From NCBI GenBank assembly GCA_015058045.1, contig SVDC01000021.1:1-62843 (forward strand): DNA of 62,843 bases, in the 5' to 3' direction. The notes below the pieces were generated by a model. It saw nothing but the letters and a program-made list of their open reading frames with translations. It did no database searches and had not been told where the DNA came from. Each line of letters starts with the position of its first letter. The stretch's first letter is position 1. Shown here piece by piece: positions 13,229-48,010 of this stretch. This DNA comes from Cellulosilyticum sp. GTDB lineage: Bacteria; Bacillota; Clostridia; Lachnospirales; Cellulosilyticaceae. Made by a program: the position numbers and the translations under genes.

Positions 13229-13272
13229 CTTAAGATTTAGCTTAAAAAACATATATCAGGGAGGATTTAATA

Positions 13273-14604
13273 ATGACTATACAACTTTCGGATCACTTTA
13301 CTTATAAAAAATTAATCCGCTTTGTCTTACCATCCATTATTATGATGATTTTTACATCCATTTATAGTGTAGTAGATGGACTATTTGTTTCAAACTTTGT
13401 GGGTAAAGTCCCATTTGCCGCTGTAAATCTCATTCTACCATTTGTTATGATTCTAGGTTCTGTTGGTTTTATGCTTGGAACCGGTGGAAGTGCTCTCGTC
13501 GCTAAAACACTAGGTGAAGGACATAAAGAAAAAGCCAATCAATATTTTTCTTTCTTAATTATTGTTGCACTCGTATCAGGGATTGTTTTTGCGGTACTTG
13601 GCATTGCTTTTCTTAAACCGATTGCTACATTACTCGGTGCAGAAGGTGAAATGTTAGCGTACTGCGTAGTCTACGGTAGAATTCTACTCTTAGCTTTACC
13701 TGCTTTTATGCTCCAAAATATGTTTCAAAGCTTTCTTGTCACAGCAGAAAAACCAAATGTAGGACTTGCCATCACTGTAGCTGCTGGGCTTACTAACATT
13801 GTTTTAGATGCATTTTTCATTGCAGTACTTGATTTAGGTATTATAGGTGCTGCTGCTGCAACTGCTATCAGTCAAATGATTGGAGGCATTATTCCACTTA
13901 TTTATTTCGCAAGAAAAAATAAGAGCCTTCTTAAATTTACTAAAACTCAATTTATGGGAGATGTCCTTATTAAAGCATCTTCTAATGGTGCATCAGAGTT
14001 CTTAACGAATGTTTCTATGTCACTCGTTTGTATGCTTTACAACTTCCAACTCATGCGTATGGTTGGAGAGAATGGTATTGCTGCTTACGGCGTTATTATG
14101 TACGTTCAATTTATCTTCTTAGCCATCTTCATTGGCTACTCCATTGGAACTGCACCACTCATTGGCTTTAACTTCGGTGCATCCAATCATAAGGAATTAA
14201 AAAATGTACTTAAAAAGAGTCTTATCCTTATTACCCTTTCAGGTATTGTCCTAATGATTACTGCCTTTATAGGCTCTAATCCACTTGCAAAAGTATTTGT
14301 AGGCTATGACCAAGAACTCTTTGAACTTACTGCAAGAGGCTTTAAATTCTATGCTGTTTCATTCCTACTTTGTGGCTTTAGTATCTTTGGTTCAGCGTTC
14401 TTTACAGCCTTAAATAACGGTCTCATTTCAGCCGTTATCTCATTCTTAAGAACAGTAGTATTCCAAGTTGCTGCCGTATTAATCTTACCCATCTTCTTAG
14501 GTATCGATGGCGTATGGAGTGCTATCTCCGTAGCAGAATTCTTAGCCCTTATTGTAACGATTATTTTACTCGTTAAATTTAAAAACAAATATCATTATGC
14601 ATAA
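13273..14604 (+). CDS. MATE-family efflux transporter
   Basis: 443 aa, twelve hydrophobic segments in two six-helix bundles, starting with IRFVLPSIIMMIFTSIYSVVDGLFVSNFVG, the usual first helix of NorM/DinF-like MATE proteins. Such pumps expel cationic drugs or metabolites using Na+ or H+ gradients. The start follows GGGAGGATTTAATA. It is monocistronic, with a very strong promoter but a terminator in the leader, so basal expression may be low until relieved. It is only distantly similar to the second MATE gene at 30677-32047. Confidence 0.9.
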   Translation: MTIQLSDHFTYKKLIRFVLPSIIMMIFTSIYSVVDGLFVSNFVGKVPFAAVNLILPFVMILGSVGFMLGTGGSALVAKTLGEGHKEKANQYFSFLIIVALVSGIVFAVLGIAFLKPIATLLGAEGEMLAYCVVYGRILLLALPAFMLQNMFQSFLVTAEKPNVGLAITVAAGLTNIVLDAFFIAVLDLGIIGAAAATAISQMIGGIIPLIYFARKNKSLLKFTKTQFMGDVLIKASSNGASEFLTNVSMSLVCMLYNFQLMRMVGENGIAAYGVIMYVQFIFLAIFIGYSIGTAPLIGFNFGASNHKELKNVLKKSLILITLSGIVLMITAFIGSNPLAKVFVGYDQELFELTARGFKFYAVSFLLCGFSIFGSAFFTALNNGLISAVISFLRTVVFQVAAVLILPIFLGIDGVWSAISVAEFLALIVTIILLVKFKNKYHYA

Positions 14605-15243: not shown

Positions 15244-17460
15244 CTATATTAAAAAGTGACTTACTTCCCCTGTATGACATAACGCCAATCTATGAAGCGC
15301 CCTTGTACAAGCAATATAAAGTAATTGTTTATCTTCTTCTTCATAGTAATTCTCCTCATTTGCTTCATAAACAATGACCGCATCATACTCTAACCCTTTA
15401 GCCATATAAATTGGCATAATAAGTGCCCCTTTATGGAACTCCTCTGATTGTGTATTTAACTTATGAAGCTCGATTTTATGAGCTAACTTACTATAGACAT
15501 GGTTTACATCTTTTTGAGATTTACAGATAATCGCAATGGTTTCATAACCGTTTTCTTTATACTCTTTTACCTTATCTTCTACCCAAGCAAGCATTTGTCC
15601 TTCGTTTTCTTGCTCTGCAATAAGTGGTATTTCATCATGTCTTTCATATGCAATAATAGCATTGGTATTTTCTCTAAGCTTTTGCGTAAATAAGCTAATT
15701 TCATAAGAAGAACGGTAGCTTTTATTAAGCCCTAATTTTAATGCCTTTTTAGGTTTTAGGCACTTCATGATTTCATCATATAAACTCTCATCTTCATTCT
15801 TTTCAATAGTTTGCCCAATATCTCCAAGGATAGTATATTGAACGCCTTTAAAGATTTCCCCTAACACTTTATATTGTAATGGATAGTAGTCTTGTGCTTC
15901 ATCTACAAGCACCTGTTTCATTTGTGGATATAAATGTTCATCTTCAAGTCTTAGTTTAAGATAAAGCATCGCCATCCCATCTTCATAGTTTATAAAGTCT
16001 GGGCGTAAACCTTTTGCTGTGAAAGCTCTCATACTATCCACACCTTTTGGTAGTTCCAACCCTTTTGTAAGCTTATTAAAGAGCTTTTCATCTTTAAATA
16101 ATTTTGCATATAGCCCAAAGATATCAATTCTTGCAAAGCTACGAATGGTATCCGCTGTTTCTTGTCTATAGGCATTTAATTTTTGGTCAACATCCTCATC
16201 TGCAAAGTAAGTCCCTTTTCCTTTTAATTCTTTAAAGAGATCTTTACGTTTTGCTTTTTCACATTCTCTTATCTTTTGCTCTAATCCATGACTCATACGT
16301 TTTAAACGTCTACCTGCTACCATATTAATAGCATTATCTAAGAAGTTTTTACGTAAGGTTTCTTTATCTATTAAAAGCTCCCCTGCATAGTAAACATCTT
16401 TAAATTGAATTAATTCTTTTTCAAAGGCCTCAACTAATCGGTCTAATATTTCTGCAAAGACAAGTGACCCTTTAAATCGAATATTACTTCTGATTTTGTT
16501 TCTATTTTTATGGGTAATCATATGCTCTAATTGGCTATTTCTAGAGCGAAGTTTATGTCTTCCTTTAAAATACGCATCAAAGAATTCTTCCATAGTGCTA
16601 TATTGTACATTGTTTTCCCCAAGCTCTGGAAGAACCGTAGATACATACTCTCCAAAAAGATGATTTGGCGAGATAATCATAATATTATCACTGGTTAACC
16701 CTTCACTCATACGCTCATATAAAAGGAACGCAATACGGTGCATCGCAATAGATGTTTTTCCACTACCTGCTACCCCTTGTACCATAAGTAAGTCATTGCC
16801 TTTATCACGAATGATTAAATCTTGCTCCTTTTGAATGGTCTCTACAATGTTTTTCATATAGCTAGAGGCATTATTACCTAATGCTTGTTGAAGTAGATCA
16901 TCTGTAATCGCTACTGAAGAATCAAAGAAGTAATCTAGCTGACCTTTGCTAATTTCATATTGTCTCTTAAGACTCATTTCCCCTCTAATTTCACCACAAG
17001 GTGCTTCATAGCTTGCTTTTCCTAACTCATTTCTATAAAACATACTGGCAATTGGTGCACGCCAGTCATATACATAAACCTGATAACTCCCATCTTTCAT
17101 GACATTTTGATAACCAATGTAAATTTTCTCTACGTCATATTCTTCTTCCTCTGTGAAATCAATACGACCAAAATAAGGTTTATCTAAAATGCGTTTGTAT
17201 TGCTCTAATTTCTCTAATTTATTAGCATAGTGCGCTGTCTCCATACGCTCCATAGTATGATATTGGCTGATTTCTATATTTCTATCATAATCATCTACTG
17301 TAGATACCCCACCTGCAAACATTTCTTTTCTCAGTGCCACAAGCTCACTTTTTTGTTTGGCTACCATCTCTCCACTAGATGCAATTTGCTCCTCTAAAAA
17401 TGCAATCACTTCTTTTAAGTATTGCTGTTCCATTTCTAAATTCTCATTGTAATTGCTCAT
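15244..17460 (-). CDS. helD: HelD-like superfamily 1 ATPase that recycles stalled RNA polymerase
   Basis: 738 aa. The N-terminal coiled coil (residues 5-50) fits the arm that enters the RNA polymerase secondary channel. Walker A GVAGSGKT is at 229-236, and the later motifs VDEAQDYYPLQY, ILGDIGQTI, MAKGLEYDAVIV and LLYIACTRALHRL are all present, so the ATPase looks intact. Bacillus HelD removes stalled polymerase from DNA and is related to UvrD/Rep. The conserved YDWRAPIASMFY region is typical of Firmicute HelD. It is divergent from the TetR gene at 17711 and expressed alone. Confidence 0.88.
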   Translation of the reverse strand: MSNYNENLEMEQQYLKEVIAFLEEQIASSGEMVAKQKSELVALRKEMFAGGVSTVDDYDRNIEISQYHTMERMETAHYANKLEKLEQYKRILDKPYFGRIDFTEEEEYDVEKIYIGYQNVMKDGSYQVYVYDWRAPIASMFYRNELGKASYEAPCGEIRGEMSLKRQYEISKGQLDYFFDSSVAITDDLLQQALGNNASSYMKNIVETIQKEQDLIIRDKGNDLLMVQGVAGSGKTSIAMHRIAFLLYERMSEGLTSDNIMIISPNHLFGEYVSTVLPELGENNVQYSTMEEFFDAYFKGRHKLRSRNSQLEHMITHKNRNKIRSNIRFKGSLVFAEILDRLVEAFEKELIQFKDVYYAGELLIDKETLRKNFLDNAINMVAGRRLKRMSHGLEQKIRECEKAKRKDLFKELKGKGTYFADEDVDQKLNAYRQETADTIRSFARIDIFGLYAKLFKDEKLFNKLTKGLELPKGVDSMRAFTAKGLRPDFINYEDGMAMLYLKLRLEDEHLYPQMKQVLVDEAQDYYPLQYKVLGEIFKGVQYTILGDIGQTIEKNEDESLYDEIMKCLKPKKALKLGLNKSYRSSYEISLFTQKLRENTNAIIAYERHDEIPLIAEQENEGQMLAWVEDKVKEYKENGYETIAIICKSQKDVNHVYSKLAHKIELHKLNTQSEEFHKGALIMPIYMAKGLEYDAVIVYEANEENYYEEEDKQLLYIACTRALHRLALCHTGEVSHFLI

Positions 17461-32320: not shown

Positions 32321-34150
32321 ATGGAAGAGCGTAAACCACCGAAAAAATCTCTTATTTATTATTATGGTATTGCTCTAGTGATTTTAATTATCCTCAATGC
32401 TTTTGTCTTTCCTTCCCTTATGGATAAACAAATCAAAGAGGTAGACTACAATACTTTTTTAAATGATGTTCAATCAGGAAATATTGAACAAGTCGTATTA
32501 GATACAGACCAAATTACTTTCTCTATTAAAGATAAAGATGGTAATGTTCAATTATATAAAACAGGCATATGGCCTGATGAAAATTTAGTGAATCGTTTGC
32601 ATGATGCTGGTGTTAAGTTTTCAGCAGAGATTCCTGTTCAAAATTCACCTATTTTAGAATTTATCCTTAGTTGGGTCATTCCAATCGGAATCTTCTTTAT
32701 CCTAAGTCAATTTATGATGAAAACCGTTTCAAAGAAAATGGGTAGTGGATTTGGCGGAAACTCTATGATGTTTGGAAAATCCGATGCTAAAATCTATGTC
32801 AAAGCCCAAACAGGCAAACGCTTTAAAGATGTGGCAGGCCAAGATGAAGCTAAAGAAGCCCTTCAAGAAATTGTAGACTTCCTTCATGATCCCAATAAAT
32901 ACTCACAAATTGGTGCAAAAATGCCAAAAGGAGCCCTTCTTGTTGGGCCTCCAGGAACAGGTAAAACCTTACTTGCTCAAGCTGTAGCTGGTGAAGCAGA
33001 TGTACCTTTCTTCTCTATTTCAGGTTCTGAATTCGTTCAAATGTTTGTAGGGATGGGAGCTGCTAAAGTACGTGATCTCTTTAAACAAGCTAATGAAAAA
33101 GCCCCTTGTATTGTCTTTATTGATGAAATTGATACTATTGGTAAAAAACGTGATAATGGTGGTATTGGTGGGGGCAATGATGAACGTGAACAAACCCTTA
33201 ACCAACTACTCACTGAAATGGATGGGTTTGACGGTTGTAAAGGTGTTGTTATCTTAGCAGCGACTAACAGACCTGATTCATTAGATAAAGCCCTTCTTAG
33301 ACCAGGGCGCTTTGATAGACGTATTCCTGTGGAACTTCCAGATTTAACAGGACGTGAAGCGATTCTTAAAGTTCATGCTAAAAATGTTAAGATTGATAGC
33401 AACGTAGACTTTAACGCTATTGCCCGTGCCACAGCAGGTGCTTCTGGTGCCGAACTTGCCAATATTATTAATGAAGGTGCACTACGTGCTGTGCGTCTAG
33501 GTAGAAGTGTAGTAACCCAAGAAGACCTTGAAGAAAGTGTTGAAGTTATTATTGCAGGTTACCAAAGAAAAGGTTCAGCTATTACGAAAAAAGATAAGGA
33601 AATCATTGCTTATCATGAAATCGGTCATGCCTTAGTGGCGGCTAAACAATCTAATTCCGCTCCTGTGCATAAAATCACTATTATTCCACGTACTTCAGGC
33701 GCACTGGGTTATACGATGCAAATTGATGAAAATGAACGCGTGCTTATGAGTAAAGATGAAATCCTCAGTAAGATTGCAACCTTTACTGGTGGGCGTGCTG
33801 CTGAAGAATTAATCTTTAACTCCATTACTAGTGGTGCTTCTAATGATATTGAACAAGCCACAAAGTTAGCTCGTGCTATGATTACACGATATGGAATGAG
33901 TAAAGACTTTGATATGGTTGCACTAGAAACCCTTTCTAATCAATATCTAGGCGGTGATACCTCTCTTGCATGTTCTCCAGAAACAGCAACTGCTATTGAT
34001 AGGGAAGTCATTGCTACTGTTCGCGCAGCTCATGAAAAAGCTATTGAAATTCTAAGAGAAAACTATGATAAGCTCCATGAGTTAGCTGCTTATCTTCTTG
34101 AAAAGGAAACCATAACAGGCGAAGAATTTATGAATATTCTTAATGCCTAA
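32321..34150 (+). CDS. ftsH: ATP-dependent zinc metalloprotease FtsH
   Basis: 609 aa membrane AAA+ protease that degrades misfolded membrane proteins and short-lived regulators. Transmembrane helix 1 is at about 12-30, then a short external domain, helix 2 at about 112-131, AAA domain with Walker A GPPGTGKT (209-216) and Walker [12 protein letters not shown] region ending RPGRFDRR, and zinc site HEIGH (432-436) with Asp509 as third ligand. The C-terminus ends soon after the protease domain with no long tail, and the substrate loop reads [10 protein letters not shown] rather than the usual FVGVGASRVR. It is monocistronic, away from the tilS-hpt context usual for the main ftsH, so it may be an extra paralogue. 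Confidence 0.94.
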
Positions 34151-34438: not shown

Positions 34439-35656
34439 ATGAAAAAAGCTTTGATTGTTTTATTCTTTTTACTCTTTTGTTTTCCTAGCTATGTCTTTGC
34501 CCAGGATTATTCAAATGTTACATTAGGAAAACTCCAAGAAGGTAGTCTAAAATTAGTTTATGAGGATGCCATTATTCCTACATATAAAGCTTATGATGCC
34601 AATTATATTCTTATTTCTGATTTAAAATATTTAGGTTGCAATGTGATCTACTCTCCAGAAGATAAATCTATTTCTATTTCTGTTCCACTATACGGTGATG
34701 CACTTCCAGAATCTCACATAAACCTGATTTCAGAACCTTTTTCCTTATATAATGGACTTGTACAAGTAGACTATTTTGAAACTCAAAGCCTTCTCTGCAA
34801 TGGGAATACCCTTATTCCTCTTGCTGCTCTTGGAAATGTCGGTACACTTTCTATTATAGATTCTACCTGTACCTTTATACCTAGTAATGCTGTTCCCGTA
34901 GATACAACCCAAACTACCATTTCTAATTTAAGTGACTTAAGTCTAAATGTTTCCATTCTAGATATCTATTGGAATGGTGAAGCCATCCTAACACCTTCTA
35001 GCTATACTCTTGAACCATATGCCATACTTGAACGTCCTCTCCCTGTTACTGATGATCATACACTCTATCTTGCCACGCTTGTCCAATCTGCTACTGGAGA
35101 AAATTATACTTTCGTAAGTAATAGCTATCTTGGGCAACTTAATACCCCACTTATGAAAAAGTATACGCGATACTCTACACGCGCTGCACTTGAAGACTAT
35201 GGTGATATTACTAGTTTAGACGAGATTATTAAAGCAGAGGACTTTGTTAATGCTAAAGGTCTAAGTAGCCCAACGCCCTATTTAGTTTGGACCAATATAG
35301 ATACTCAACGCACTTACATATTCCAAGGCTCCACTAATAATTGGAAACTTCTTAAATCCTTTATCTGCTCTACTGGTAGAGATTATACCCCAACACCAAA
35401 AGGCACCTTTGCACTGACCTATAAAGTTTCTAGCTTCGGTCAAAATAAAGGTTATTGCTGTAAATACGCCTTTGGATTTATTGGAACAACCTATCTCTAT
35501 CATTCCATTATCTTTGATAAATCAGGTACTTATCTTTTAGAGAATAAAGGTATATTAGGTAAAAAGGCTTCTCAAGGATGTATTAGATTCGACGTAGAAA
35601 ATGCCAAATGGTTCTATGATACACTTTCATCAGGTACAACGGTCTATATCAATTAA
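34439..35656 (+). CDS. Secreted L,D-transpeptidase (YkuD) with a stalk domain
   Basis: 405 aa with a cleavable-looking signal peptide (residues 1-22, ending VFAQ). Residues about 30-150 resemble a copper-amine-oxidase-N-like stalk (YDANYILISDLKYLGCNV, GNTLIPLAALGNV). The catalytic YkuD domain at the C-terminus has HSIIFD and KASQGCIRFD, with catalytic Cys381; the usual SHGC reads SQGC here, a variant also seen in other clostridial enzymes. It would cross-link or edit peptidoglycan outside the cell. Start ATG follows AGAGGGGTACATATT. Confidence 0.82.
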   Translation: MKKALIVLFFLLFCFPSYVFAQDYSNVTLGKLQEGSLKLVYEDAIIPTYKAYDANYILISDLKYLGCNVIYSPEDKSISISVPLYGDALPESHINLISEPFSLYNGLVQVDYFETQSLLCNGNTLIPLAALGNVGTLSIIDSTCTFIPSNAVPVDTTQTTISNLSDLSLNVSILDIYWNGEAILTPSSYTLEPYAILERPLPVTDDHTLYLATLVQSATGENYTFVSNSYLGQLNTPLMKKYTRYSTRAALEDYGDITSLDEIIKAEDFVNAKGLSSPTPYLVWTNIDTQRTYIFQGSTNNWKLLKSFICSTGRDYTPTPKGTFALTYKVSSFGQNKGYCCKYAFGFIGTTYLYHSIIFDKSGTYLLENKGILGKKASQGCIRFDVENAKWFYDTLSSGTTVYIN

Positions 35657-35787: not shown

Positions 35788-36609
35788 CTACTGATCCGTT
35801 GATTTACTAACTACTGTTGCACCAATTGTCTTTATTAATTCATCTATCTGATTTTTGTCTTGCTTAGCAGTATATTTCATTTGTTTAAAAAGCTCACTTC
35901 TATCATTCATTCTTTGAAGTGTTTTTGTAAAGGCTTCATCTATCTTTTGACTATCTTCTACCTTATGAACTAATACTTTCACATTTCCTTCTAATCCCTT
36001 AAAGAAAAGTATTTTATATTTCTCATATAAGACCGTTCGCTCTTTTATGATGTCTAGATTCTTTAATTCAAGAATCTCCTCTTTTGCTTGGTTTGGATAA
36101 TAAAGTAGCTTCTCATTTAAGGCTTTTAATTCAGATGCCTTAACTTCCATTAAAACATTAGGTAGAAGATAAAAATTGTGTGCCTCTTCTAATACTGTTT
36201 CAATCCGCACAGCATCTTCTATTGATTTCTTATGGGTATCAATTTTTTTATCTGGATTCATTAACCCCTTATAGCACCATATAACATCACTTTTCTTATG
36301 CTGCTTACTTTTAGGTGTATCTGTTAAATTATAGGCTATATTCGTAAAACTTAATCTTCCTGCCTCTTCCTTGATAATGTGCTGCTCCATAAGCTGATTC
36401 ACTAAATGATTTACCACTGTATCCTCTAGCGCTAGTGCATCCATAATGCCATAGCGCTCTGTGATTCCTTGTTTAATGCAACGACAAATATATTCTTCTA
36501 AAGTGCCTATTGGTGCTTTACAAATATACTCCATCTTTAAGTCCATTTTAATAAGAGGAAGATAGACATCTAATGAACCTGCCAATTGATGATTTTCATA
36601 ATCATACAT
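35788..36609 (-). CDS. Last protein of the dynamin operon, possible winged-helix start
   Basis: 273 aa, soluble. Residues about 35-95 (GTLEEYICRCIKQGITERYGIMDAL then QLMEQHIIKEEAGRLSFT) look like a winged-helix domain; the rest is charged and helical with a KILFFKGLEGNV segment. It starts with AGGAGGATTAGGAA upstream, 15 bp after the pseudo-helicase gene, so it is part of the operon. I cannot assign a function. A DNA-binding or adaptor role for the neighbouring helicase-like protein is inference. Confidence 0.65.
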   Translation of the reverse strand: MYDYENHQLAGSLDVYLPLIKMDLKMEYICKAPIGTLEEYICRCIKQGITERYGIMDALALEDTVVNHLVNQLMEQHIIKEEAGRLSFTNIAYNLTDTPKSKQHKKSDVIWCYKGLMNPDKKIDTHKKSIEDAVRIETVLEEAHNFYLLPNVLMEVKASELKALNEKLLYYPNQAKEEILELKNLDIIKERTVLYEKYKILFFKGLEGNVKVLVHKVEDSQKIDEAFTKTLQRMNDRSELFKQMKYTAKQDKNQIDELIKTIGATVVSKSTDQ

Positions 36610-36624
36610 TTCCTAATCCTCCTT

Positions 36625-39087
36625 CTACATAAAAGTTTCCAAAGAACTTTTATTTTCCTTTGGACAGTTTTGATACAGGTGAGTAAATAGAGATTTTAAG
36701 TTGCTTGTAGCATCTCCTAGTAAGATAATCTTCTTACCTTGAATCATTGGAATAAGCATATCTAAACCTGTAATTTGATGTGCCTCACTAATAATCACAT
36801 ACTCAAATGATCCATTTACTAAAGCTTGCTCTTTGCATGCTAATAGTGCATGACAAGTTGTTCCTACCGCTTTAATTTGATCTACTAAATAATCTCTCAT
36901 TAAAGCTTCATCTTCCATTAGGCTTTGTTTCCAATCTGCCTTAAGCTTAGATAGTTCTTCGTAAAAATCAACTTTCTCTTTATATACTTGTAATTTATAA
37001 TCCCTTTGTGCCACCGCTGTTTCCAGAATTTCTAAAGCTTCTAGAGACGCTTCACCAAGGGGATTTTCTAAGATTGTTAAAGCCAATGACTGTCCCTCAT
37101 CAACGAAGTCAAGGAAAGCCTTAAACTCCGCTTCTTCTAGTTTGCTAGTGAGCAAACTATGTACTTCTTGTTGTTTTTTTAGAAGTTCCATCATTTGATC
37201 CTGATTTGCTTGTTGTAACCCAAGAAGCTGCTCATTTTTCTTAACAATCGCTTCAATTTCAAAGTACTCTTCCAAACCATCTAAGTACTCTACATAGGCT
37301 TCATCCTCTTCAAAGAGTGCTTCAACCCTTTGCATACGTTTAAAGATATCAATAACTTCTGCCTTTGTAATATCCTCTTTACAATAAATCCCACCTAATT
37401 CAAAGCTATACATCGCTATGTAGGCCTCAACCTTTTCTTTAAGCTCATATAACTTTACTTTCATTTCATCTAAATGGCGTGTACTTATAATCCCCATTTC
37501 GATATAGGCCTTTTCTTCATCTAATGCTTGACGTTTTGCTTCTAAAGCTTCAATTTTTTGAATAAGTGTCTCATCTGTTTCAATGGTTTCATTGAAATCA
37601 ACTTGCTTTAAAGCCTCTGTTTTTAGATGTTTACGTCTCAGTTCTAAAAGCTCTAGCTCAATCTGTTTGTAAGCATCTTCATACGTACTTCTTTTAGCAA
37701 TCTGCGCTTGATAAGCCTTAAGCTTTTCCTCAAAAACTTGTACTTCTTGATCATATTCTAATACTAAATCCTTATATTCTTGATAATGAATAGCGCTTCC
37801 ATGTTGCTCCATCCATATAAGTTCCTCGTAGAGGCCTGCATCATATTTTAAAGCTTCTTTCAACTTCTGATAAACTTCACGCTTATGCTTAGAAATATTT
37901 TCATAACGCTCTAGCGCCTCTACATAAGACATTCCTTCATGCCCTAATGCCTCAGACTCTTCTTTTAAAGCAACTTGTTCTTCCTCTATTTCCTTTAATA
38001 GAGCTAAAATTTCAAAGCCTAGTTTAATAGTTCTATCCGCATTATGATAGATATCACATTCTTTTTTCATCTGATCTAATTCTTCTTTATGCTTACTGTG
38101 CTTTGACTCCTCTTCGTTCAGCTTTTTTAATACACTTTCTTTCATATGCTCTATTTGATAGGCTAATGTATATTTGCCTTCTTTATCTTGCTTTGGATCA
38201 TGAAGTCCTGCTACACCTACTCTACATTCTTCTAATGCCCCTAAAATCGCTTCTACTTGCTCATTATTAGGTGCCACCACCATTACCTTCTGCTGATTAC
38301 TCGTCCCTTGCTCTACCATTTCTTTAATTAAAGAAATGGCTGGCACTATTTGAGTTTGGCCAGTATGCGTCTTTGTAGATTGTGTGTGGATGAAATAGAC
38401 ATCCTCAGTTGATAGTGCATGTGATAAAATCTGCTTTTCCTGTTGACTTAACATTTCATAGTGCATCGTAAAATTTTCATTTAAAAAGGATTTTATAAGA
38501 GGTGCCTTTAAATTAACTACATCTGGCATAAATGTTCTCATCTCTTTATTTGCTGTCTGCCCTGCATATAACTTTTTAAGCGTCTCTACCATATAGTTAT
38601 CATTTAAAGCCTCATCCTCTTTTTGCTCATCCGTCTGCTCTAATGAATGCTCTTTAGCAATAAGCTGATACCATTCTTCCACATAGCTTTCTAATGCCTT
38701 CTTTTGCTCTTCAACCTGCATAAAGCGCTCTACATCATGATGTTCTTTACCATTAATATATTGAAATTTATAGACTGGTACAAAGGTAATCTTTTCTTCT
38801 AGAAGCTTTCCTTCTTCAATCACTTTATGATAAGTTACCACATCTGTTTCTTCTGCTTTAATAACTTTTAAATAACCCTTACTTTCTCCAACGCATTCTA
38901 AGGTAATGGCTGCACTATATAAAAACACTCTAAGTCCAGTCTCTCTATCAAAATGCTCACTATAAAGTGTTCCCCTACCAATCGGATTAAACTGGCTATT
39001 TAAATATCTAGACCATTCCTGTGCGCCTTGCTCTACCATCTTCCCATGAATAAACTTCATAGGTGCATCTAAAACTAAAATATCCAT
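36625..39087 (-). CDS. DNA2/NAM7-type helicase relative with lost ATPase motifs and a giant coiled-coil insertion
   Basis: 820 aa. The region around residues 205-282 aligns with the start of superfamily 1B helicases: LSQQEKQILSHAL (Q-motif-like), then DVYFIHTQSTKTHTGQT where Walker A GPPGTGKT should be, then VMVVAPNNEQVEAIL (motif Ia). Residues about 310-740 are a long coiled coil. Then AVGTTCHALL, FEYVIISEAHQ (motif II with the first Asp replaced by Ser, 767-771) and KIILLGDAT (motif III). The protein ends about 50 residues later, so the second RecA domain is absent. It should not hydrolyse ATP; a structural or sensor role is inferred. It lies 5 bp downstream of a dynamin gene. Confidence 0.7.
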   Translation of the reverse strand: MDILVLDAPMKFIHGKMVEQGAQEWSRYLNSQFNPIGRGTLYSEHFDRETGLRVFLYSAAITLECVGESKGYLKVIKAEETDVVTYHKVIEEGKLLEEKITFVPVYKFQYINGKEHHDVERFMQVEEQKKALESYVEEWYQLIAKEHSLEQTDEQKEDEALNDNYMVETLKKLYAGQTANKEMRTFMPDVVNLKAPLIKSFLNENFTMHYEMLSQQEKQILSHALSTEDVYFIHTQSTKTHTGQTQIVPAISLIKEMVEQGTSNQQKVMVVAPNNEQVEAILGALEECRVGVAGLHDPKQDKEGKYTLAYQIEHMKESVLKKLNEEESKHSKHKEELDQMKKECDIYHNADRTIKLGFEILALLKEIEEEQVALKEESEALGHEGMSYVEALERYENISKHKREVYQKLKEALKYDAGLYEELIWMEQHGSAIHYQEYKDLVLEYDQEVQVFEEKLKAYQAQIAKRSTYEDAYKQIELELLELRRKHLKTEALKQVDFNETIETDETLIQKIEALEAKRQALDEEKAYIEMGIISTRHLDEMKVKLYELKEKVEAYIAMYSFELGGIYCKEDITKAEVIDIFKRMQRVEALFEEDEAYVEYLDGLEEYFEIEAIVKKNEQLLGLQQANQDQMMELLKKQQEVHSLLTSKLEEAEFKAFLDFVDEGQSLALTILENPLGEASLEALEILETAVAQRDYKLQVYKEKVDFYEELSKLKADWKQSLMEDEALMRDYLVDQIKAVGTTCHALLACKEQALVNGSFEYVIISEAHQITGLDMLIPMIQGKKIILLGDATSNLKSLFTHLYQNCPKENKSSLETFM

Positions 39088-39092
39088 ATTTT

Positions 39093-40946
39093 TTACCCCA
39101 ACAAATCATCAATATTAAAATCTTTATAGTCTACCACCTCAGACTCAGCATATTTACTTGCCTCAAGCCTCTCAACTAAAAGTACTTGAAGTGCCTGATA
39201 AGGTGCTAAACCTTCTTCTAATTGTTTCACTAGGCCTTCTAATTCTAATGGTGTTTTCATAGAGCTTTGATTCATAAACTGATTTAAAAGTTGCTCCTCT
39301 ACCTGCGCACTCAAAACATTAAAGTGATGACCTGTTACAAGGTCGCTTTCGATTAACACATTTTTAATACTACGAATCTTTTCAAGGAGTTCTCCTTGAT
39401 ATGCTTCTACTTCTTTTTTTCCATTATGTTCTTCATAAGCTGTTCGTAAATAACCCACTGCAAGTCCCCCTGCAAGTACTACTGGGAATACTGTAATGGC
39501 AGCACTTATCACACTAATACTTGCTGCTGTTGGTCCTAAAAATGCCATATAACCTGTTAAAGCAGAACCAATTTTAACACTATCCCATAAGCTATCTTTA
39601 AGCGCTGTACGGTCTTTTACTTCCTCTACTATTGGAACAAGATCTTCCTCTGTTGATTCCTTCTTATCACTAAAAATCTGCGTGCTACTATAAAGTTTTG
39701 CTTGTTCAATGTGTAGATGCTCTGCAAATCTTCTAAGCTCTTCTAGGCAATCTTCATCTAATCGTTTAACACGTTGCTTCCAGCCCTCTTCTAATTGTTG
39801 GCAGAAGTTATTAATTTGCTCTGATGTAACTTGATTAATATACGCTTCACTTAAAGAATTCTCTTCTATTTTACGAAGCTCCTCTAATGTGATTTTCTTC
39901 TGATTAATTTCGCGTATTTCATCTGATAGGAATCCATATTTAATCCAAGATATAAATTTTTCCTGAATCTCTTCGCTGATTTCCTCATGAATCTTATGAA
40001 TAGAGATTTCGTACTCATCCATCATTTTTTGAACATGCTTACTGATTTGAATCATTTCATCATGATAGCCCATTTCTCTTTCAATCAGTGAAATTAAGCT
40101 TTGAGTAACCACTTCTCTTTTTTTCTTTTCAAGGTCTTCACCAATTTCTGCTTTGATTGTTTCTAACAAATAACGTACACCGCTTGTCTCATAAACAAGA
40201 CCAGATTCTACTGCTTCTAACTCTTGATATGCAGATAATGGAATATAAGTCCCTAACTCTGGTATATCCCTTCTGGCACTCTCTACGATTTCTTCTGAAG
40301 AAACATTGACCTCATCAATACGATTTAAAACGCCAATAATCTCTTTTCCTTGGTCTTTAATATCAAAGATATAATCTCTAATATTTTGTTGCCCAATATA
40401 GTTACTATTAAATACCCATACCACAATATCAGACCATGGAATATAGCGTTTTGTAATTTCCTCATTAGAATCTGTTACAGTACCTAGTCCTGGAGTATCA
40501 ATTAAATCAAATTGTTTTAAAATAGGTAGATTTAGTCCAATTTCAATATTGGTACATTCTTTAATAAAAGCATTATCACCGTTTCTTTCTTCTAGCATTT
40601 CTACAAGCTTATCTACATCTTGCAATTTAAAACGACCATTTTTAGTGATGACACTACATTCTTCTACCTCACTATAATAAAAATGGTAGATAGCCGATGT
40701 AGCTTCTAATACACTAACTCTGGAAAGACGTCTTCCCAAAATACTATTGATTAAAGTAGATTTTCCTGCCTTTACTTCCCCCATTAAAACGACTTTTATA
40801 GGAAGTTCCAAAGAACCTCTTACGATGTCTAAATACCCTCTATTCTCTTCAAATAAAGGCTTAAACTGTGCAAAAAGTTCACTTTCTTCATTCCTTCCTG
40901 GCGCTTCCTCCATTATTTCTGCTAACTGATTAATATATTGTTCCAT
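39093..40946 (-). CDS. Dynamin-like GTPase with membrane hairpin
   Basis: 617 aa. GTPase motifs are G1 GEVKAGKST (56-64), a switch I Thr near 83 (LEATSAIYHF), G3 DTPGLG (150-155) and G4 NRID (208-211). A helical stalk follows, and a hydrophobic hairpin at about 458-500 (YMAFLGPTAASISVISAAITVFPVVLA in outline) resembles the membrane paddle of bacterial dynamin-like proteins. These proteins tubulate, fuse or repair membranes. It overlaps the preceding dynamin gene by 25 bp, so the two GTPases are made together and probably hetero-oligomerise, as do paired dynamins such as those of Campylobacter. Confidence 0.85.
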   Translation of the reverse strand: MEQYINQLAEIMEEAPGRNEESELFAQFKPLFEENRGYLDIVRGSLELPIKVVLMGEVKAGKSTLINSILGRRLSRVSVLEATSAIYHFYYSEVEECSVITKNGRFKLQDVDKLVEMLEERNGDNAFIKECTNIEIGLNLPILKQFDLIDTPGLGTVTDSNEEITKRYIPWSDIVVWVFNSNYIGQQNIRDYIFDIKDQGKEIIGVLNRIDEVNVSSEEIVESARRDIPELGTYIPLSAYQELEAVESGLVYETSGVRYLLETIKAEIGEDLEKKKREVVTQSLISLIEREMGYHDEMIQISKHVQKMMDEYEISIHKIHEEISEEIQEKFISWIKYGFLSDEIREINQKKITLEELRKIEENSLSEAYINQVTSEQINNFCQQLEEGWKQRVKRLDEDCLEELRRFAEHLHIEQAKLYSSTQIFSDKKESTEEDLVPIVEEVKDRTALKDSLWDSVKIGSALTGYMAFLGPTAASISVISAAITVFPVVLAGGLAVGYLRTAYEEHNGKKEVEAYQGELLEKIRSIKNVLIESDLVTGHHFNVLSAQVEEQLLNQFMNQSSMKTPLELEGLVKQLEEGLAPYQALQVLLVERLEASKYAESEVVDYKDFNIDDLLG

Positions 40947-42886
40947 TCACTTTCACCCATTCCCTTAATGTAATCCGTCACTGTACTTTCTCTCGTTGGT
41001 TCCACAATAAGCTTCTCTATAATTTTTAAAGCATAAAGTTGATTAATACGTACCTGATCATTGCCATAAAGCTCATCAAACTGGCGCTGTCTAATTTCAA
41101 GGATTTGTCTTTTTTCACTTGTTAAACTTGTTGTGATGGTCTCTGTCAATTGTCTAGCCATCATTTGGATGGCATCTTGTAACTGCTCTTCTAATCGTTC
41201 TTTGTACTGCTCAATATACGGCTTATCCACTATTTTTTTTACTGCACTAATGCCACCTAATAATTTTCTAATTGGACTAGATTCCATTTTATCTAGCCCT
41301 AAAGCCATTTCAATAAATCCAAAATACTGCATGACATTAAATTCTTCCGTTACTTCATGTAGAGGATAAACTTTTACTTCTAGTAATCCTGACTTATTCA
41401 TATATTCTTTTTGAATACGCTCTATCTTCTTTGAAATATCTTGAAGCAATTCTTTAACCTCACGCTGATATCTCGTAATATTTAAAATATCCTCTTTTAA
41501 TAAACTTTCCTTATCTGCTTTTGTCTCAATTAAGGCTTCTGTAAACTTCTCGATATGAGCCTTTGACGTATGCCCATAGCTTAAAATCATATTATCAAGT
41601 TGCTCTAAACTCTCTTTTTCTATGATTTTAAACTGCTGTGATATTTCCTTATTGATTGCAAGATACCCTCTTACACGCTCTTCCATCTCTTGAATATAGT
41701 AGGCGATTAACACTTGAAACTTTATTTCTTCTCTTTGAATTTCCTTTAAGATTTTCTGAGTTTTAGCTTGGTTTGCACCTAGTAGGAAATAACTTTTAAT
41801 ATAATCTTCTAATGCCTCATAACCACTTTCTTGAAGTAATACTTTATCTTCTTTAAGCCTTCCTTCAAGCGCCTTTGTAGCCGAAAATGGTAAAATCGCA
41901 TTAAAGGACTCACCATACATTTGGTTCGCCTGCATTAAAGTAGCTTGTCTTTCTTCTTCTGTGCGAATACAATCACTTCTATTTAAAAGCGCCAAAATCC
42001 GTTTTTGGTCTTTTGCCTTACCTTTAGTAAATAGCGTTTTCTCAATCTCTTCTATATAAGTTTTTATAGAGTTGGTTGCAATCTTATTGATATCTAATAC
42101 CCAGATGATTCCATCTGCTTCATCGTAATATTTCTGAATAGAATCCTGCAAATAGCTTGCTACTCGATTTTGTCTTAACCCTGGTGTATCCACTACTTGA
42201 AAGTTTGCAAGTAATTCATTAGTTGGTACTTGCCACCTTGCTTCTATAATAGGGGAAGTATATAGTTCTTCTGCCCATAGGCGCTGCTTATAAGCTTCTA
42301 GTTTATCTGCCACTTCTCTAAAAGGAATATGCTGCGCCTTACAAACCTTACTAATCGTATCCGTCTTTTCTTTAATACACTCTTGAATTTTGCGAATAGA
42401 AGCTTCTCTCTTTTCTTCTTCTGCCTCAATAAAGTTTTTTGCTTCTTCCTCTGTCAGACTCAGCTGTTCATTACCCTTTGAGCCATAGGTCACAACTTGA
42501 ACACCCTTGTCATCTGCTTCATGAAAGACATCAATCTTCCAAGTCATTGGATCAAACTTCATTTTAGCAATTTCTGCGCCTAACAGTGTATTCACCACTG
42601 TAGACTTCCCTACATTTCCATCCCCAATAATAAAAATAGAGAATTTCTCCTCTAGTTTGCCAGCAAGTTGCTTAAATCTTTTTAACCCTTGCTTAATATC
42701 TGCAAGACATTGTTTTTCCTTCTCTGATTGTCCTTTTTGTGTTTCTAATGGAATAATAGCCTTTTCGATTTGACTGATTTTCTCTTCTAACCTAGCTTTA
42801 ATATAGAAACGCTCTTGATTGAGCTTTTCTGCTTCTAATTTTTGATAAAAGCTAACTAGTTTATTTGCTACTTCATTAAGCGCCAT
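40922..42886 (-). CDS. Dynamin-like GTPase without clear membrane hairpin
   Basis: 654 aa. G1 GDGNVGKST (88-96), switch I Thr in FDPMTWKI near 115, G3 DTPGL (233-237), G4 NRSD (302-305). The GTPase domain has a roughly 100-residue charged insertion between G2 and G3 (about 130-215), then a long helical stalk. No strong hydrophobic segment is visible, unlike its partner. Start ATG 42886 lies inside the end of the coiled-coil gene (11-bp overlap). It is divergent from the 617-aa dynamin, so this is a pair of unlike GTPases, not a recent duplication. Confidence 0.83.
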   Translation of the reverse strand: MALNEVANKLVSFYQKLEAEKLNQERFYIKARLEEKISQIEKAIIPLETQKGQSEKEKQCLADIKQGLKRFKQLAGKLEEKFSIFIIGDGNVGKSTVVNTLLGAEIAKMKFDPMTWKIDVFHEADDKGVQVVTYGSKGNEQLSLTEEEAKNFIEAEEEKREASIRKIQECIKEKTDTISKVCKAQHIPFREVADKLEAYKQRLWAEELYTSPIIEARWQVPTNELLANFQVVDTPGLRQNRVASYLQDSIQKYYDEADGIIWVLDINKIATNSIKTYIEEIEKTLFTKGKAKDQKRILALLNRSDCIRTEEERQATLMQANQMYGESFNAILPFSATKALEGRLKEDKVLLQESGYEALEDYIKSYFLLGANQAKTQKILKEIQREEIKFQVLIAYYIQEMEERVRGYLAINKEISQQFKIIEKESLEQLDNMILSYGHTSKAHIEKFTEALIETKADKESLLKEDILNITRYQREVKELLQDISKKIERIQKEYMNKSGLLEVKVYPLHEVTEEFNVMQYFGFIEMALGLDKMESSPIRKLLGGISAVKKIVDKPYIEQYKERLEEQLQDAIQMMARQLTETITTSLTSEKRQILEIRQRQFDELYGNDQVRINQLYALKIIEKLIVEPTRESTVTDYIKGMGESEWNNILIS

Positions 42887-43448
42887 AATTGCCTCTTATT
42901 ATAATAAATATTACTAAGCCAATGACGCCTGCTACTAATCCATAATTCACCCAGAAAAGTTTTTTTATTTGGTCAAGAAGTACTTGATTGTGAACTTCAA
43001 CACTTTCTTTAACCGCATCGTGCATTACCCCCATTTTTTGCTCAATCCACTCATTGGATTCTGCAAATTGACTTTCTACTTGCTGTCTTACCGTTTCCAC
43101 TTCACTATGCAATTTTTCTGTTGAAATGTATAGCTCTTGTGTACTTTGATTTACTATATTTTTTATGCGTTCTTCGCTTTCTTTGATCTCTAATGCCTGC
43201 TTCTCATTCATACCTTGAACTAAAGCTTTAATCTCATCTGCTGAAATATAATCTACTGCTTTAAGTTCTTCTTTGACTCTTTCAATTTCTCCACTAATGG
43301 CTTCAAGAGCATCTGCAATTTCATTTTTATAACTTCTTGTTACTACATCCTTTGCAACTTCTTTCATTTGCGCCTCTTTTAGAATCTCTAAAGAAACAGT
43401 TTCTATTAACTCTTTAAATTCATCTAATAACTTGTTTTCTGTTGCCAA
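42876..43448 (-). CDS. Coiled-coil protein with C-terminal membrane anchor, first gene of the dynamin operon
   Basis: 190 aa. Predicted coiled coil over most of residues 45-155 (IERVKEELKAVD, IKESEERIKNIV, LHSEVETVRQQVESQF), then one hydrophobic helix at about 167-186 (FWVNYGLVAGVIGLVIFIII) and a short tail. Orientation would leave the coil in the cytoplasm. The start is TTG 43448 with AAGGAG ten bases upstream; the first in-frame ATG is 27 codons on and has no ribosome site. It could recruit the dynamins to the membrane; that is inference. Confidence 0.7.
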   Translation of the reverse strand: MATENKLLDEFKELIETVSLEILKEAQMKEVAKDVVTRSYKNEIADALEAISGEIERVKEELKAVDYISADEIKALVQGMNEKQALEIKESEERIKNIVNQSTQELYISTEKLHSEVETVRQQVESQFAESNEWIEQKMGVMHDAVKESVEVHNQVLLDQIKKLFWVNYGLVAGVIGLVIFIIIRGNYGA

Positions 43449-43562
43449 TGTTCCTGTGCTCCTTATTGTAAAAATTGGTACACTTTTATTATAGCCTCAC
43501 CCTGTCCCCCTTTGCCATAACAATTTTACTTATTCCCTTCCATCTAAAAGCTTTTATGTGCT

Positions 43563-44274: not shown

Positions 44275-46191
44275 TTATATAGATTGTGAAACAACTTCAG
44301 AGATTGATGCTGAATCAGATATATTTTCTTTTACTTTAAGCAAATTAATTAAGATGACTTGAATGACACGATCATCTATTTGCTCAATGTACTTTAAAAT
44401 TTCCGCCTTAGAAAGTGTATCATTCATTACATCATTGATAATATGTTGTAATTCCAATTTCTCCTGGTGGCTTGGATTAACATTAATAAAAATATTGGTT
44501 ATGATTCTAACATTATTCATAAAAATATGCTGGTTATAGATAAAATTATTAATTTCCACAGAAGATATGAGTTGGTTGTTATATTCTATTTTTCTATTGA
44601 TAAACTTGTTAACATTAATTAATACATTAACCTCTTTTATGGAGCGATTTATACCTAGGCATTTCTCATATAGACTTGAAATAATTTTCTTATTAAACGT
44701 AATAGCGTGATTTAAATCCGACTTGGTTGCATCCGTAACACGATAAGGCAATATAACTTTATTAGCGTATAAAGCAATACAGGTTCCTAAAACAACAAAA
44801 ACTAATCTTTCAATCCCCACCGTTCTAATATCCGTTCCTATAGAGGCAGCACCCAACGCCGAAATCGTCATACAGATTACTTGTTCTGCATAATTTCTTT
44901 GATAATTACTTAAATAACCCACTATCAAGATAATAATAGATCGACTAGCGGTATCTGTAAAAACAGAAAATACAATCTCAAAAATGACTAACCCGATTAC
45001 TGTACCAATTAGTCTATGGTATCCTTTAGTCTTACTAAAATCTAAATAAGGTTGGACAACTGCATGTAAACTAAAGATAATCCACTTACCTTCTTGAATA
45101 TTAAAAGCACCTACTATAAAAACACCTATACTGGTAATAATGGCACCTCTTAAAGCAAATGTAAATCTGGAAGAATCTCTACTCATATTGTTTTTAAAGC
45201 TTGTAATCTTCTCCACTATATTCGTCACAAAATACTGACTATAGAATTTAGATAAATCATCAGCAGTTGTATTAATTAAATCTCTTTTTAGGATTGTAAT
45301 CGAAGTATTTAATTCAAAGTCTAAGAAATTTTTTGATTTTATATAATCACATGCTGATGAATAATTGTTCAGTGCACAAATGAGATTATCTACATTTTCT
45401 TTATCATTTAAAAATAAATCCATATGATTTAATAAAACAGATAATGCTTTTATGCTACTTATATTCGTATCATACTTCTGCTGCGTCATTTCTTTTATCT
45501 GTATATTTAAGCTATCTAGAAAATGTGCTATAAATAATTCTTGAAATAAACTTATAGGTAGTCTTGCCCCTTTATCAATATACTCATAAAGTGTTTCTAT
45601 TAAGTTTCTTAAAATTGTATGTGTCGTATGATTTAATTCAGAAAGCTGATCTAAATCCTTCTCTGCCTCAACTAACGCAATCTCTTCTTGAAGATTTTTT
45701 AAAGCTATCTTTATTTGAGTATGTGTTCGTTTCTGGATTGCATTTTTGTTGGCAACAAATTGCAATAACATGATCACCAATCCCCAAAGGGCTAAACCTA
45801 CTAGTCGTAGTGGTAATCCACTCAGTGGTACTGGACTATATAACATAAAAAAATACCCTAACGTAAAACCTACATAGATGGGCTTTTTATTATCATAGGT
45901 AAAAGTATAGAGTATATAAAATACCATACCAAAAGTAATAATGAGTCCTAGGAAGGCATTAAGTGAAGCAAGAAAAGAGGCAATCCCAATAATAACTTCT
46001 AAGCAAACAAAGTAAATGGTATTTTTGACTGGATTAATGGTGTAATCTGTTCCCATTAAAGAAAGGGCTGCCGTAATGCCTGTTACAGCAACTAACGAAT
46101 TTTCTTGACCAAATACAGCGCCAAATAAAACGCACGAAATAATGATGATTAAAAATAGGATAGTAGTAGATATGATTTTTTTCTTATTCAT
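44275..46191 (-). CDS. FUSC-family membrane protein, two-bundle form
   Basis: 638 aa with six helices at the start (about residues 5-160), a cytoplasmic helical region (about 160-330), a second helical membrane block (about 345-480) and a C-terminal helical domain. This is the design of the YccS/FusC (aromatic acid exporter) superfamily; the second block has GKWIIFSLHAVVQPYLDFSKTKGYHRLIGTVIG in outline. Substrate unknown. Start ATG 46191 has AAAGGAG seven bases upstream; an extension to 46236 has none. Larger than the FUSC protein at 11291. Confidence 0.78.
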   Translation of the reverse strand: MNKKKIISTTILFLIIIISCVLFGAVFGQENSLVAVTGITAALSLMGTDYTINPVKNTIYFVCLEVIIGIASFLASLNAFLGLIITFGMVFYILYTFTYDNKKPIYVGFTLGYFFMLYSPVPLSGLPLRLVGLALWGLVIMLLQFVANKNAIQKRTHTQIKIALKNLQEEIALVEAEKDLDQLSELNHTTHTILRNLIETLYEYIDKGARLPISLFQELFIAHFLDSLNIQIKEMTQQKYDTNISSIKALSVLLNHMDLFLNDKENVDNLICALNNYSSACDYIKSKNFLDFELNTSITILKRDLINTTADDLSKFYSQYFVTNIVEKITSFKNNMSRDSSRFTFALRGAIITSIGVFIVGAFNIQEGKWIIFSLHAVVQPYLDFSKTKGYHRLIGTVIGLVIFEIVFSVFTDTASRSIIILIVGYLSNYQRNYAEQVICMTISALGAASIGTDIRTVGIERLVFVVLGTCIALYANKVILPYRVTDATKSDLNHAITFNKKIISSLYEKCLGINRSIKEVNVLINVNKFINRKIEYNNQLISSVEINNFIYNQHIFMNNVRIITNIFINVNPSHQEKLELQHIINDVMNDTLSKAEILKYIEQIDDRVIQVILINLLKVKENISDSASISEVVSQSI

Positions 46192-46306
46192 TAAAAATCT
46201 CCTTTGCCAAAAATATTTTGGAGAATCTGTTTTCAAATATTATGGTATCTATAGAGTTAAGCGATACCTAAAGATGTATGGAAATAAATTCTAATTAGAT
46301 CAAACT

Positions 46307-47259: not shown

Positions 47260-47615
47260 TTATTCACCAAATCTAATAGGACTGGCTATCGTTTCACGCT
47301 TAACTAATCGAGGATTTATCTTACCTGTTTCTTCATAAAGTACATCTCTAATCTTTTCAGCTAATTCAATACTATATTCTGCTTCTGCTCTATCTTTAAT
47401 TTCTGTATAATTTTCTCCTGGATATCTTGCATCAAAATACCAATCTCCTAAGTATTTGCATTCCATAGGATTTAGTATCTTTTTACTTGCAAATTCATTG
47501 ATAATTAATGCCAATTTACGTAAATTATGAGTCGTTAAGTCTTTATCATATTTTCCATTTTCGTTGACAAAATCTATAATAAATCCTTCTCTGCTATTTC
47601 TTTATAAGTTTTCAT
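47260..47615 (-). pseudogene. HEPN-domain toxin gene, disrupted (frameshift and internal loss)
   Basis: A start codon with AAGGAGGGGAGAAA and an ATGA overlap with the MNT gene opens MKTYKEIAEKDLL and stops after 13 codons. The next frame then continues IIDFVNENGKYDKDLTTHN and LRKLALIINEFASKKIL through YFDARYPGENYTEI to IASPIRFGE. Intact HEPN proteins of this type have a helix with the AxQAAEKALK-type motif between these parts; it is missing, so a deletion together with the frame change is likely. The C-terminal 84 codons still form an open frame from a TTG without a ribosome site. Confidence 0.75.
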
Positions 47616-48010
47616 TTTCTCCCCTCCTTATGATAGATTTGTAGGCCATCTCCAATTTCTCTATATAAACGTTGCTTATCATATTGCTCTACATAGTTTT
47701 TTTGACTTAAAATTACTGCATTCGTTTCAACACCAAATTGGCTATCATCATTTAAAGTAACTCTTATATCAGCTAATTCATTTCTTGTTAAATCTTCACC
47801 CGTAATGATCCCTAAATCTATGTCACTTCTTAAGGTTGCTATGCCTTTACAACATGAACCAAACAAAATAATATAATTGATTTTCTCAAAGTATAATTGT
47901 TTTTCTAAGTAATCTATATCACTTTTTAGCTTACAGATATGCACTTTTGGCATTTTTAACTGTTCACTCAGTTTTACTTCCATTTCATTTTTTCCATAAT
48001 TCCAAGGCAC
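47612..48010 (-). CDS. MNT-domain nucleotidyltransferase (MntA-like antitoxin)
   Basis: 132 aa. Minimal nucleotidyltransferase motif GS at 51-52 (LFGSCCKG) and DxD at 63-65 (RSDIDLGI). In HEPN/MNT modules such as HepT/MntA the MNT protein AMPylates the HEPN RNase and blocks it. Start is GTG 48010 with AAGGGG eight bases upstream. It overlaps the HEPN start through ATGA. The antitoxin is intact while the toxin is broken, which suggests decay of the module after loss of selection. Confidence 0.8.
   Translation of the reverse strand: MPWNYGKNEMEVKLSEQLKMPKVHICKLKSDIDYLEKQLYFEKINYIILFGSCCKGIATLRSDIDLGIITGEDLTRNELADIRVTLNDDSQFGVETNAVILSQKNYVEQYDKQRLYREIGDGLQIYHKEGRK

Follow-up and report, generated by a model that had tools for sequence, protein, structure and literature searches.

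A five-gene operon that joins relatives of proteins from two anti-phage systems was characterised on the minus strand, within positions 35788-43448, of contig SVDC01000021.1 (62,843 bases; hereafter the window), which belongs to the 4.16-Mb Cellulosilyticum sp. assembly GCA_015058045.1 (genome G000; other genomes and loci are numbered with G and L). In this operon a membrane-anchored protein (gene 1) is followed by two dynamin-like GTPases (dynA and dynB) and by genes 4 and 5, distant relatives of the helicase MkoA and its winged helix-turn-helix (wHTH) partner MkoB from Mokosh. By its defining features the operon is not Mokosh or CoCoNuT, and membership in Eleos is possible; it is built from relatives of Mokosh and Eleos proteins. 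A preliminary description, made from the sequence, had stated that it matches no known system. This did not hold for the parts, which PADLOC models recognised (MkoA, E 3e-11; MkoB, E 6.9e-8; LeoBC, E 4.9e-21), and it did hold for the whole: the parts are known (Eleos- or DynA-like dynamins and a Mokosh/CoCoNuT helicase-wHTH pair), and the combination is new within the searches made. The reading that we favour, tentatively, is that the five proteins act as a membrane-associated guard whose dynamins may be scaffolded or triggered by a dead, ex-defence sensor.

Five minus-strand open reading frames (ORFs) were confirmed in the order gene 1, dynA, dynB, gene 4, gene 5, separated successively by an 11-bp overlap, a 25-bp overlap, a 5-bp gap and a 15-bp gap, exactly as had been described. 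All five genes stand in identical order, with spacings of 2, 6, 6 and 14 bp, in a second Cellulosilyticum species (G006), where the 11- and 25-bp overlaps are not preserved. In a third species (G003) genes 4 and 5 lie on a 4.3-kb contig, the start of which encodes, as judged by eye, the end of dynB, and the synteny thus holds in G006 and, as far as the contig reaches, in G003. The rough ratio of nonsynonymous to synonymous substitution rates (dN/dS) was 0.11-0.26 across all five genes. Shared order, tight spacing and this ratio bear out the earlier view of one unit, and the five genes form a real, selected one.

Gene 4 had been described as a dead helicase-like protein, and its Pfam AAA_11 match (Table 1) and lost motifs agree with this. 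The Walker A sequence GPPGTGKT is lost at the P-loop in all three species and no GK[ST] is present in 3/3 orthologs, which rules out an active helicase; Walker B is altered as well, motif II reading SEAH, HEAQ or HQAH across the species. Pfam gave neither a kinase match nor the second RecA domain (AAA_12), the latter being present in the MkoA of L009. The relation to MkoA was seen in profile alignments by hhalign: residues ~210-324 aligned to the MkoA P-loop region at E 2.9e-8, a score reached by 0/60 column shuffles, residues ~712-818 aligned to the Walker B region at E 6.4e-11, and the alignment to a Nostoc MkoA over a similar stretch reached E 2.9e-15. When the MkoA profile was run with decoys, the three gene 4 proteins scored 3.6e-10 to 1.3e-8 vs. 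0.0086 for the best shuffled decoy. The gene 4 motifs are separated by ~450 residues that are mostly helical in the AlphaFold2 model (mean predicted local distance difference test, pLDDT, 45). Foldseek with this model found Senataxin as the best match (E 0.039), then mostly axonemal coiled coils, none of them below 0.001.

The strongest conservation in gene 4 was observed outside the helicase motifs. Residues 1-125 are 88-91% identical between species vs. 33-53% in the other blocks, with dN of 0.05-0.08 vs. 0.37-0.66, and the selected function of the protein most likely lies there. A profile of the N-terminal 210 residues matched 1/398 genomes of the phylum, its own, and the best hit of this region in a PDB profile search (E 0.043) was not credible; these searches gave no relative beyond the genus. 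We also considered whether a lost defence system left genes 4 and 5 as leftovers that are carried along with a working dynamin pair. Such decay would fit the missing Walker A, RecA2 half and kinase of gene 4 and the shortness of gene 5 relative to MkoB, but both frames are intact in three species at 53-63% identity, dN/dS is 0.11-0.26 and the 125-residue domain is 88-91% identical, which makes a decaying relic very improbable; for gene 4 itself, purifying selection rules out a pseudogene.

Gene 5, formerly put down as a small, possibly winged-helix protein, does contain such a fold in its AlphaFold2 model, where residues ~31-90 run helix-helix-helix-strand-strand with pLDDT 73-87. Foldseek matches of this domain were mostly DNA-binding domains of DtxR, MntR, IdeR and CggR (E 0.04-0.25, none below 0.001), and a profile of gene 5 plus MkoB matched CggR at E 0.0047. 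The orthologs are 57% and 63% identical to the window protein. Aligned by hhalign, gene 5 matched four MkoBs at E 2.1e-6 over ~99 residues and three MkoBs at E 1.4e-4, with 0/60 shuffles reaching the score. No Pfam family exceeded its cut-off for gene 5, and no nuclease motif or effector domain was recognised in it; it showed no similarity to the DarT-family protein of L088 or the CnuE-position protein of L089. In L090 the protein at the MkoB position carries a phospholipase D (PLD)-like annotation. As a candidate PLD enzyme gene 5 was rejected by eye: H126 and K128 are invariant, but there is no HxKxxxxD.

The two dynamins had been recognised correctly, as both carry Dynamin_N (Table 1) with intact motifs: GDGNVGKS (G1), DTPG (G3) and NRSD (G4) in dynA, and GEVKAGKS, DTPG and NRID in dynB. 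Orthologs are 64% (dynA) and 74% (dynB) identical. The profile match of dynA to a PDB entry was weak (2j68, a bacterial dynamin-like protein, E 0.0042), whereas the dynB GTPase domain resembles LeoBC (PADLOC) and mitofusin-2 (E 3e-5). By hydropathy, a hairpin spans dynB residues 468-501 in the window and 459-498 in G006. The two genes accordingly show the features of a bacterial dynamin-like pair, namely adjacent GTPases with intact G1, G3 and G4 and a hydrophobic segment in dynB. At E 1e-5, Dynamin_N matched nothing else in G000 or G006; at this threshold no match was found in G001, which is without the operon, or in the 81% complete assembly of G003. Gene 1 had been called an anchored coiled coil. 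The anchor, at residues 163-190, is its single hydrophobic segment and was confirmed by hydropathy, while the coiled coil is assigned by eye; no Pfam family exceeded its cut-off. Its ortholog in G006 is 63% identical and preserves both the TTG start and the AAGGAG upstream of it.

Comparison with Mokosh type I showed that the operon shares its helicase-wHTH gene order, that gene 4 and MkoA match in the region of motifs I and II, and that gene 5 matches the N-terminal ~100 residues of MkoB. It differs in that gene 4 is without kinase, Walker A and RecA2 and has an altered Walker B, in that the C-terminal part of MkoB is unrecognisable in the shorter gene 5, and in the addition of dynamins and an anchor. 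Since kinase, Walker A and RecA2 are absent, membership in Mokosh was ruled out. The discovery work on Mokosh reportedly describes a kinase plus helicase layout, which we saw in L009; there the kinase domain of MkoA was found by Pfam, and it is conserved in an alignment of three MkoAs. A search with the MkoA family matched 23/24 genomes and 13/14 controls, mostly over the kinase, and was not used as evidence of Mokosh; G006 and G008 match over the helicase part too, and an intact Mokosh in G006 is possible. According to PMC11291487, Mokosh degrades foreign viral transcripts.

With Eleos/LeoABC the operon shares two dynamin-like GTPases in tandem. It also shares a small upstream protein with a C-terminal membrane anchor (here gene 1; LeoC in PMC4159319), although gene 1 is without the GTPase half and its match to the LeoC model is at E 0.09. 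The dynB protein matches Leo models mainly in the GTPase domain and scores 35 bits against a cut-off of 325 in the NCBIfam LeoA-family model; dynA matched PADLOC LeoBC at E 8.1e-6. We know of no helicase or wHTH gene in Eleos.

CoCoNuT type II/III (CnuH/CnuE, McrB-like GTPase, coiled coils) resembles the operon in combining GTPases, coiled coils, a UPF1-like helicase whose helical insertion follows the Walker A site, and a downstream wHTH gene. According to PMC11090510, the coiled-coil insertion of the CoCoNuT UPF1-like helicase lies after Walker A, the next gene typically encodes a wHTH-effector protein, and models suggest docking of its wHTH on this insertion. The position and helicity of the gene 4 insertion fit this helicase, but gene 4 lacks Walker A and no effector was recognised in gene 5; moreover, the GTPases of the window are dynamins and not McrB, gene 4 is dead and no nuclease was seen. 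Neither McrB nor McrC families were listed for the five operon genes by Pfam, PADLOC or NCBIfam. The heteromeric dynamin logic is shared with B. subtilis DynA and Campylobacter DLP1/DLP2; in the accessible portions of PMC6104087 and PMC8844932, bacterial dynamins usually act as heteromeric pairs (PMC6104087), DynA guards the membrane and delays phage lysis (PMC8844932) and, unlike in our operon, no helicase or wHTH partners are described. In the literature searched we found no report linking a dynamin pair to a helicase-wHTH pair: the words dynamin and Mokosh are absent from PMC11090510, and articles naming Mokosh, helicase and dynamin together treat them, in the parts available, as separate systems.

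On this computational footing we infer that the five proteins would form a complex with a trigger and an output at the membrane. Gene 1, as a tail-anchored coiled coil, would recruit the complex to the cytoplasmic membrane at its inner face. There dynA, without a membrane segment, and dynB, with its hairpin, would work as an obligate heteromeric pair that tethers, seals or reshapes the membrane. Genes 4 and 5 probably descend from a Mokosh-type helicase-wHTH pair and, because ATP binding and the second RecA half are lost in gene 4, we propose that this protein serves as a non-catalytic sensor and scaffold. Its hyperconserved N-terminal domain, and perhaps the winged helix of gene 5, would bind the trigger, and through the long helical insertion the signal could reach both the dynamins and the coiled-coil anchor. 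The most likely output would be protection of membrane integrity under envelope attack, including phage lysis, as with B. subtilis DynA. In a stricter version, the dead UPF1-like sensor and its winged-helix partner directly gate the dynamin pair, so that the trigger leads to membrane dynamin assembly without ATP-driven helicase activity. This would be a membrane-immune machine of a new type, and we consider it less likely than not.

In the genome searches the operon appears confined to one clade of one genus and is thus not sporadic, a point that had been proposed as a check. Gene 4 had matches in 4/96 genomes, namely G000, G003, G006 and, with a true Mokosh helicase, G090; within the genus, the four remaining genomes, of which two are just 84-86% complete, gave none. 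A dynA profile matched 2/392 genomes of the order at E 1e-6 (G000 and G006), at most three candidates per genome being scored in the order-wide dynA and dynB searches. A profile of gene 5 and one MkoB matched in 4/391 genomes of the class. Apart from its own genome these were three Mokosh loci, of which G090 matches by construction as its MkoB was already in the profile; no dynamin was seen within the 5.1-14.7 kb fetched around these three loci. A contig scan, which detects close relatives only because two short peptide patterns were used, found two relatives, both Cellulosilyticum genomes assembled from metagenomes, one of dairy cattle colon and one of water deer ileum. In an unrooted tree of the housekeeping FtsH from six genomes (G005 left out), the three species with the operon are split from the remaining three by one branch (support 0.959). 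A tree of the transpeptidase gene was set aside, as taking the longest frame had selected wrong ones in some genomes. The simplest reading of this history is one gain followed by vertical descent. Searches beyond chromosomes gave 41 matches of the gene 4 pattern and 78 of the gene 5 pattern in viral contigs, none confirmed as relatives; gene 5 had no plasmid match at E 1, and a scan against PHROGs returned noise.

Related ARRANGEMENTS, that is, dynB-like matches, were found in 21/392 genomes of the order. We compared 20 regions from 19 of these genomes (G000 and G006 excluded) and two stretches of Lysinibacillus plasmids, and in these 22 dynamin loci no gene 4, gene 5, MkoA or MkoB match was observed under default filters at E 0.01. 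Switching the filters off brought up a single MkoA match (7.9e-5), by a cut helicase frame in L052. This locus (positions 2-14062; G149) holds three dynamins with, by eye, an M48-like peptidase gene, and the cut helicase-like frame lies ~3 kb downstream on the same strand. The Lysinibacillus capsici plasmids pFN9B (L045) and pFN9A (L046) carry separate three-dynamin operons with different proteins; the ~1000-aa dynamin of pFN9B also has a bacterial SH3 match. Among 32 outside dynamins compared, those of pFN9B were among the closest to both dynA and dynB. In G135 and G386 (Lachnospirales), as in our operon, a coiled-coil gene directly precedes a dynamin pair, yet these coiled-coil proteins are without a membrane segment, unlike gene 1. 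The pFN9B, G135 and G386 operons also differ from the window in having a third dynamin and no gene 4 or gene 5.

Two further arrangements were seen in the order. Five loci (L057, L058, L060, L061 and L062, from G380, G382, G066, G093 and G276, respectively) share a cluster of a ~320-aa protein, ~440-aa and ~770-aa dynamins, 190-220-aa proteins and a ~1071-1113-aa protein. Pfam on one copy each identified the large protein as HerA/DUF87 (1.4e-12) and the ~779-aa protein as a dynamin, other copies being matched by eye. In L066 (8249-15860; G386) a WYL regulator, a 799-aa dynamin, a 218-aa coiled coil and two ~600-aa dynamins stand beside Cas10-palm2 and RAMP-family genes. Given these HerA-type and Cas10/RAMP clusters, dynamins with nucleic-acid ATPases or near defence genes recur in the order.

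Such associations bear on the reading that competes most directly with ours, anti-phage abortive infection, in which genes 4 and 5 would detect infection or phage nucleic acid, and phage spread would be stopped by dynamins that damage or reshape the membrane, as an Eleos-like effector behind a Mokosh-like sensor. We regard it as a serious possibility that ranks close behind the membrane guard. Both halves of the operon match PADLOC defence families, five Lachnospirales loci pair dynamins with a HerA-type ATPase (by Pfam on one) and one Lachnospirales dynamin cluster with a WYL regulator lies beside Cas10/RAMP genes. The six plasmid records that match gene 4 are annotated as four kinases and two AAA-domain proteins; three were inspected by annotation and stand, respectively, in BREX, in a CoCoNuT-like operon and beside a CBASS-like operon, the last being a kinase-helicase whose partner is PLD-like. 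The first of these, on a Nostoc sp. C052 plasmid (L088, 4421-11169), is a helicase-like AAA protein followed by DarT-family and ADP-ribosylglycohydrolase genes inside the BREX operon. Some 4 kb upstream of our operon is a HEPN/nucleotidyltransferase pair that matches candidate models of PADLOC, and a similar pair, with a HEPN frame of 180 aa, is found upstream in G006 (L006, 18631-19513). On the other side, the operon is restricted to one clade and is not sporadic, gene 4 and gene 5 patterns yielded no confirmed relatives among viral contigs, and plasmids gave no match for gene 5 and weak helicase ones for gene 4. As to the suggested proximity to defence islands, most other window genes are of housekeeping type by eye, with the HEPN/nucleotidyltransferase pair as the element that speaks for it. 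PADLOC covered the five genes of the operon and eight more genes of the window, among which the window FtsH and a UvrD-like helicase (15244-17460) match general AAA and helicase models.

The genes convergent with the operon suggest another alternative, an envelope-biogenesis or division module with an extra FtsH and an L,D-transpeptidase, in which genes 4 and 5 would be a structural scaffold only. The FtsH paralog occurs in the same three genomes as the operon, with relatives 85-88% identical (the G003 copy covers 273/609 residues at a contig end) and ~51% matches at best in the other four genomes of the genus. The transpeptidase neighbour is preserved as well, adjoining the operon in G003 and lying one gene away in G006. 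Both genes are, however, on the opposite strand and outside the operon, and the transpeptidase gene is also present in G004 and G005, which have no gene 4 match; the operon-free site is shown by G004 alone, because the G005 contig stops just past this gene. We consider such a module improbable. Elsewhere in the window, a FUSC-family membrane protein (Pfam FUSC_2) is encoded at 44275-46236, and a polytopic protein at 11291-12337 resembles it by eye.

Table 1. Features of the operon and its surroundings (window positions; values are E-values unless stated otherwise).
Feature	Position	Strand	Evidence
Gene 1, 190-aa coiled-coil protein with C-terminal membrane anchor, TTG start	42876..43448	-	ORF, hydropathy
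Gene 1 ribosome-binding site AAGGAG	43459..43464	-	read from sequence, kept in G006
Gene 1 C-terminal transmembrane segment, residues 163-190	42879..42962	-	Kyte-Doolittle maximum 2.35; 2.41 in G006
Gene 2, dynA, 654-aa dynamin-like GTPase without hydrophobic segment	40922..42886	-	Dynamin_N 6.7e-16
Gene 3, dynB, 617-aa dynamin-like GTPase with hydrophobic hairpin	39093..40946	-	Dynamin_N 6.6e-20
dynB hydrophobic hairpin (membrane paddle), residues ~459-501	39444..39572	-	hydropathy
Gene 4, 820-aa pseudo-helicase (UPF1-like superfamily 1, MkoA-related), one RecA-like half, large helical insertion, ends past motif II/III region	36625..39087	-	AAA_11 2.9e-9, MkoA 3e-11
Gene 4 N-terminal domain, residues 1-125, most conserved part	38713..39087	-	88-91% identity
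Gene 4 motif I/Ia region, residues ~210-285, Walker A lost	38233..38460	-	hhalign to MkoA P-loop region
Gene 4 helical insertion, residues ~300-757, probably coiled coil	36817..38190	-	secondary structure of low-confidence model
Gene 4 motif II/III region, residues ~759-795, SEAH/HEAQ/HQAH vs. MkoA DEAA	36703..36813	-	hhalign to MkoA
Gene 5, 273-aa MkoB-like protein	35788..36609	-	MkoB 6.9e-8 and 6.7e-7 (PADLOC)
Gene 5 winged-helix domain, residues ~31-90	36340..36519	-	AlphaFold2 block pLDDT 73-87
L,D-transpeptidase-type gene, convergent to operon	34439..35656	+	YkuD 1.5e-15
Extra FtsH paralog, convergent to operon	32321..34150	+	>80% identity only in three operon-bearing genomes
HEPN (84-aa frame)/nucleotidyltransferase pair, ~4 kb upstream of operon	47260..48010	-	PADLOC PDC-S09/M05A-like for transferase

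Several results weigh against the membrane-guard reading. For gene 4 the AlphaFold2 model is of low quality (pLDDT 45 on average, ~25 in the N-terminal domain), and the N-terminal 210 residues aligned to MkoA by hhalign at E 0.096, showing no relation. The model of gene 5 is confined to the winged helix. When the three-MkoB profile was run with decoys, gene 5 of G006, G003 and the window scored 7e-7, 0.028 and 0.11, respectively, and the best of 2000 shuffled decoys 0.14; all gene 5 proteins thus ranked above the decoys, that of G006 alone being clearly significant. The reverse search from gene 5 listed one of the three MkoBs (0.0017). The dN/dS values are rough since dS, at 1.2-2.8, is near saturation. 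The HEPN/nucleotidyltransferase pair nearby favours the defence alternative, and repair rather than cell death as the output would be an analogy with DynA. Of the two functions suggested in the preliminary description, membrane surveillance or repair and defence, both are possible; dynamin pairing and a helicase-like sensor wired to membrane GTPases are each either supported or open.

To our knowledge, how bacterial dynamins are switched on is largely an open question. With only two dynamins found in the genome and three fixed partners, the operon would make dynamin control testable with five genes. Gene 4 provides a pseudo-helicase kept by selection for a job other than ATP-driven unwinding, and the operon suggests that Mokosh and Eleos, two anti-phage systems, have parts that can be combined. 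If direct gating of the dynamin pair proved true, sensor modules from Mokosh and dynamin effectors of the Eleos type would be interchangeable, and pseudo-helicases would constitute a class of sensors.

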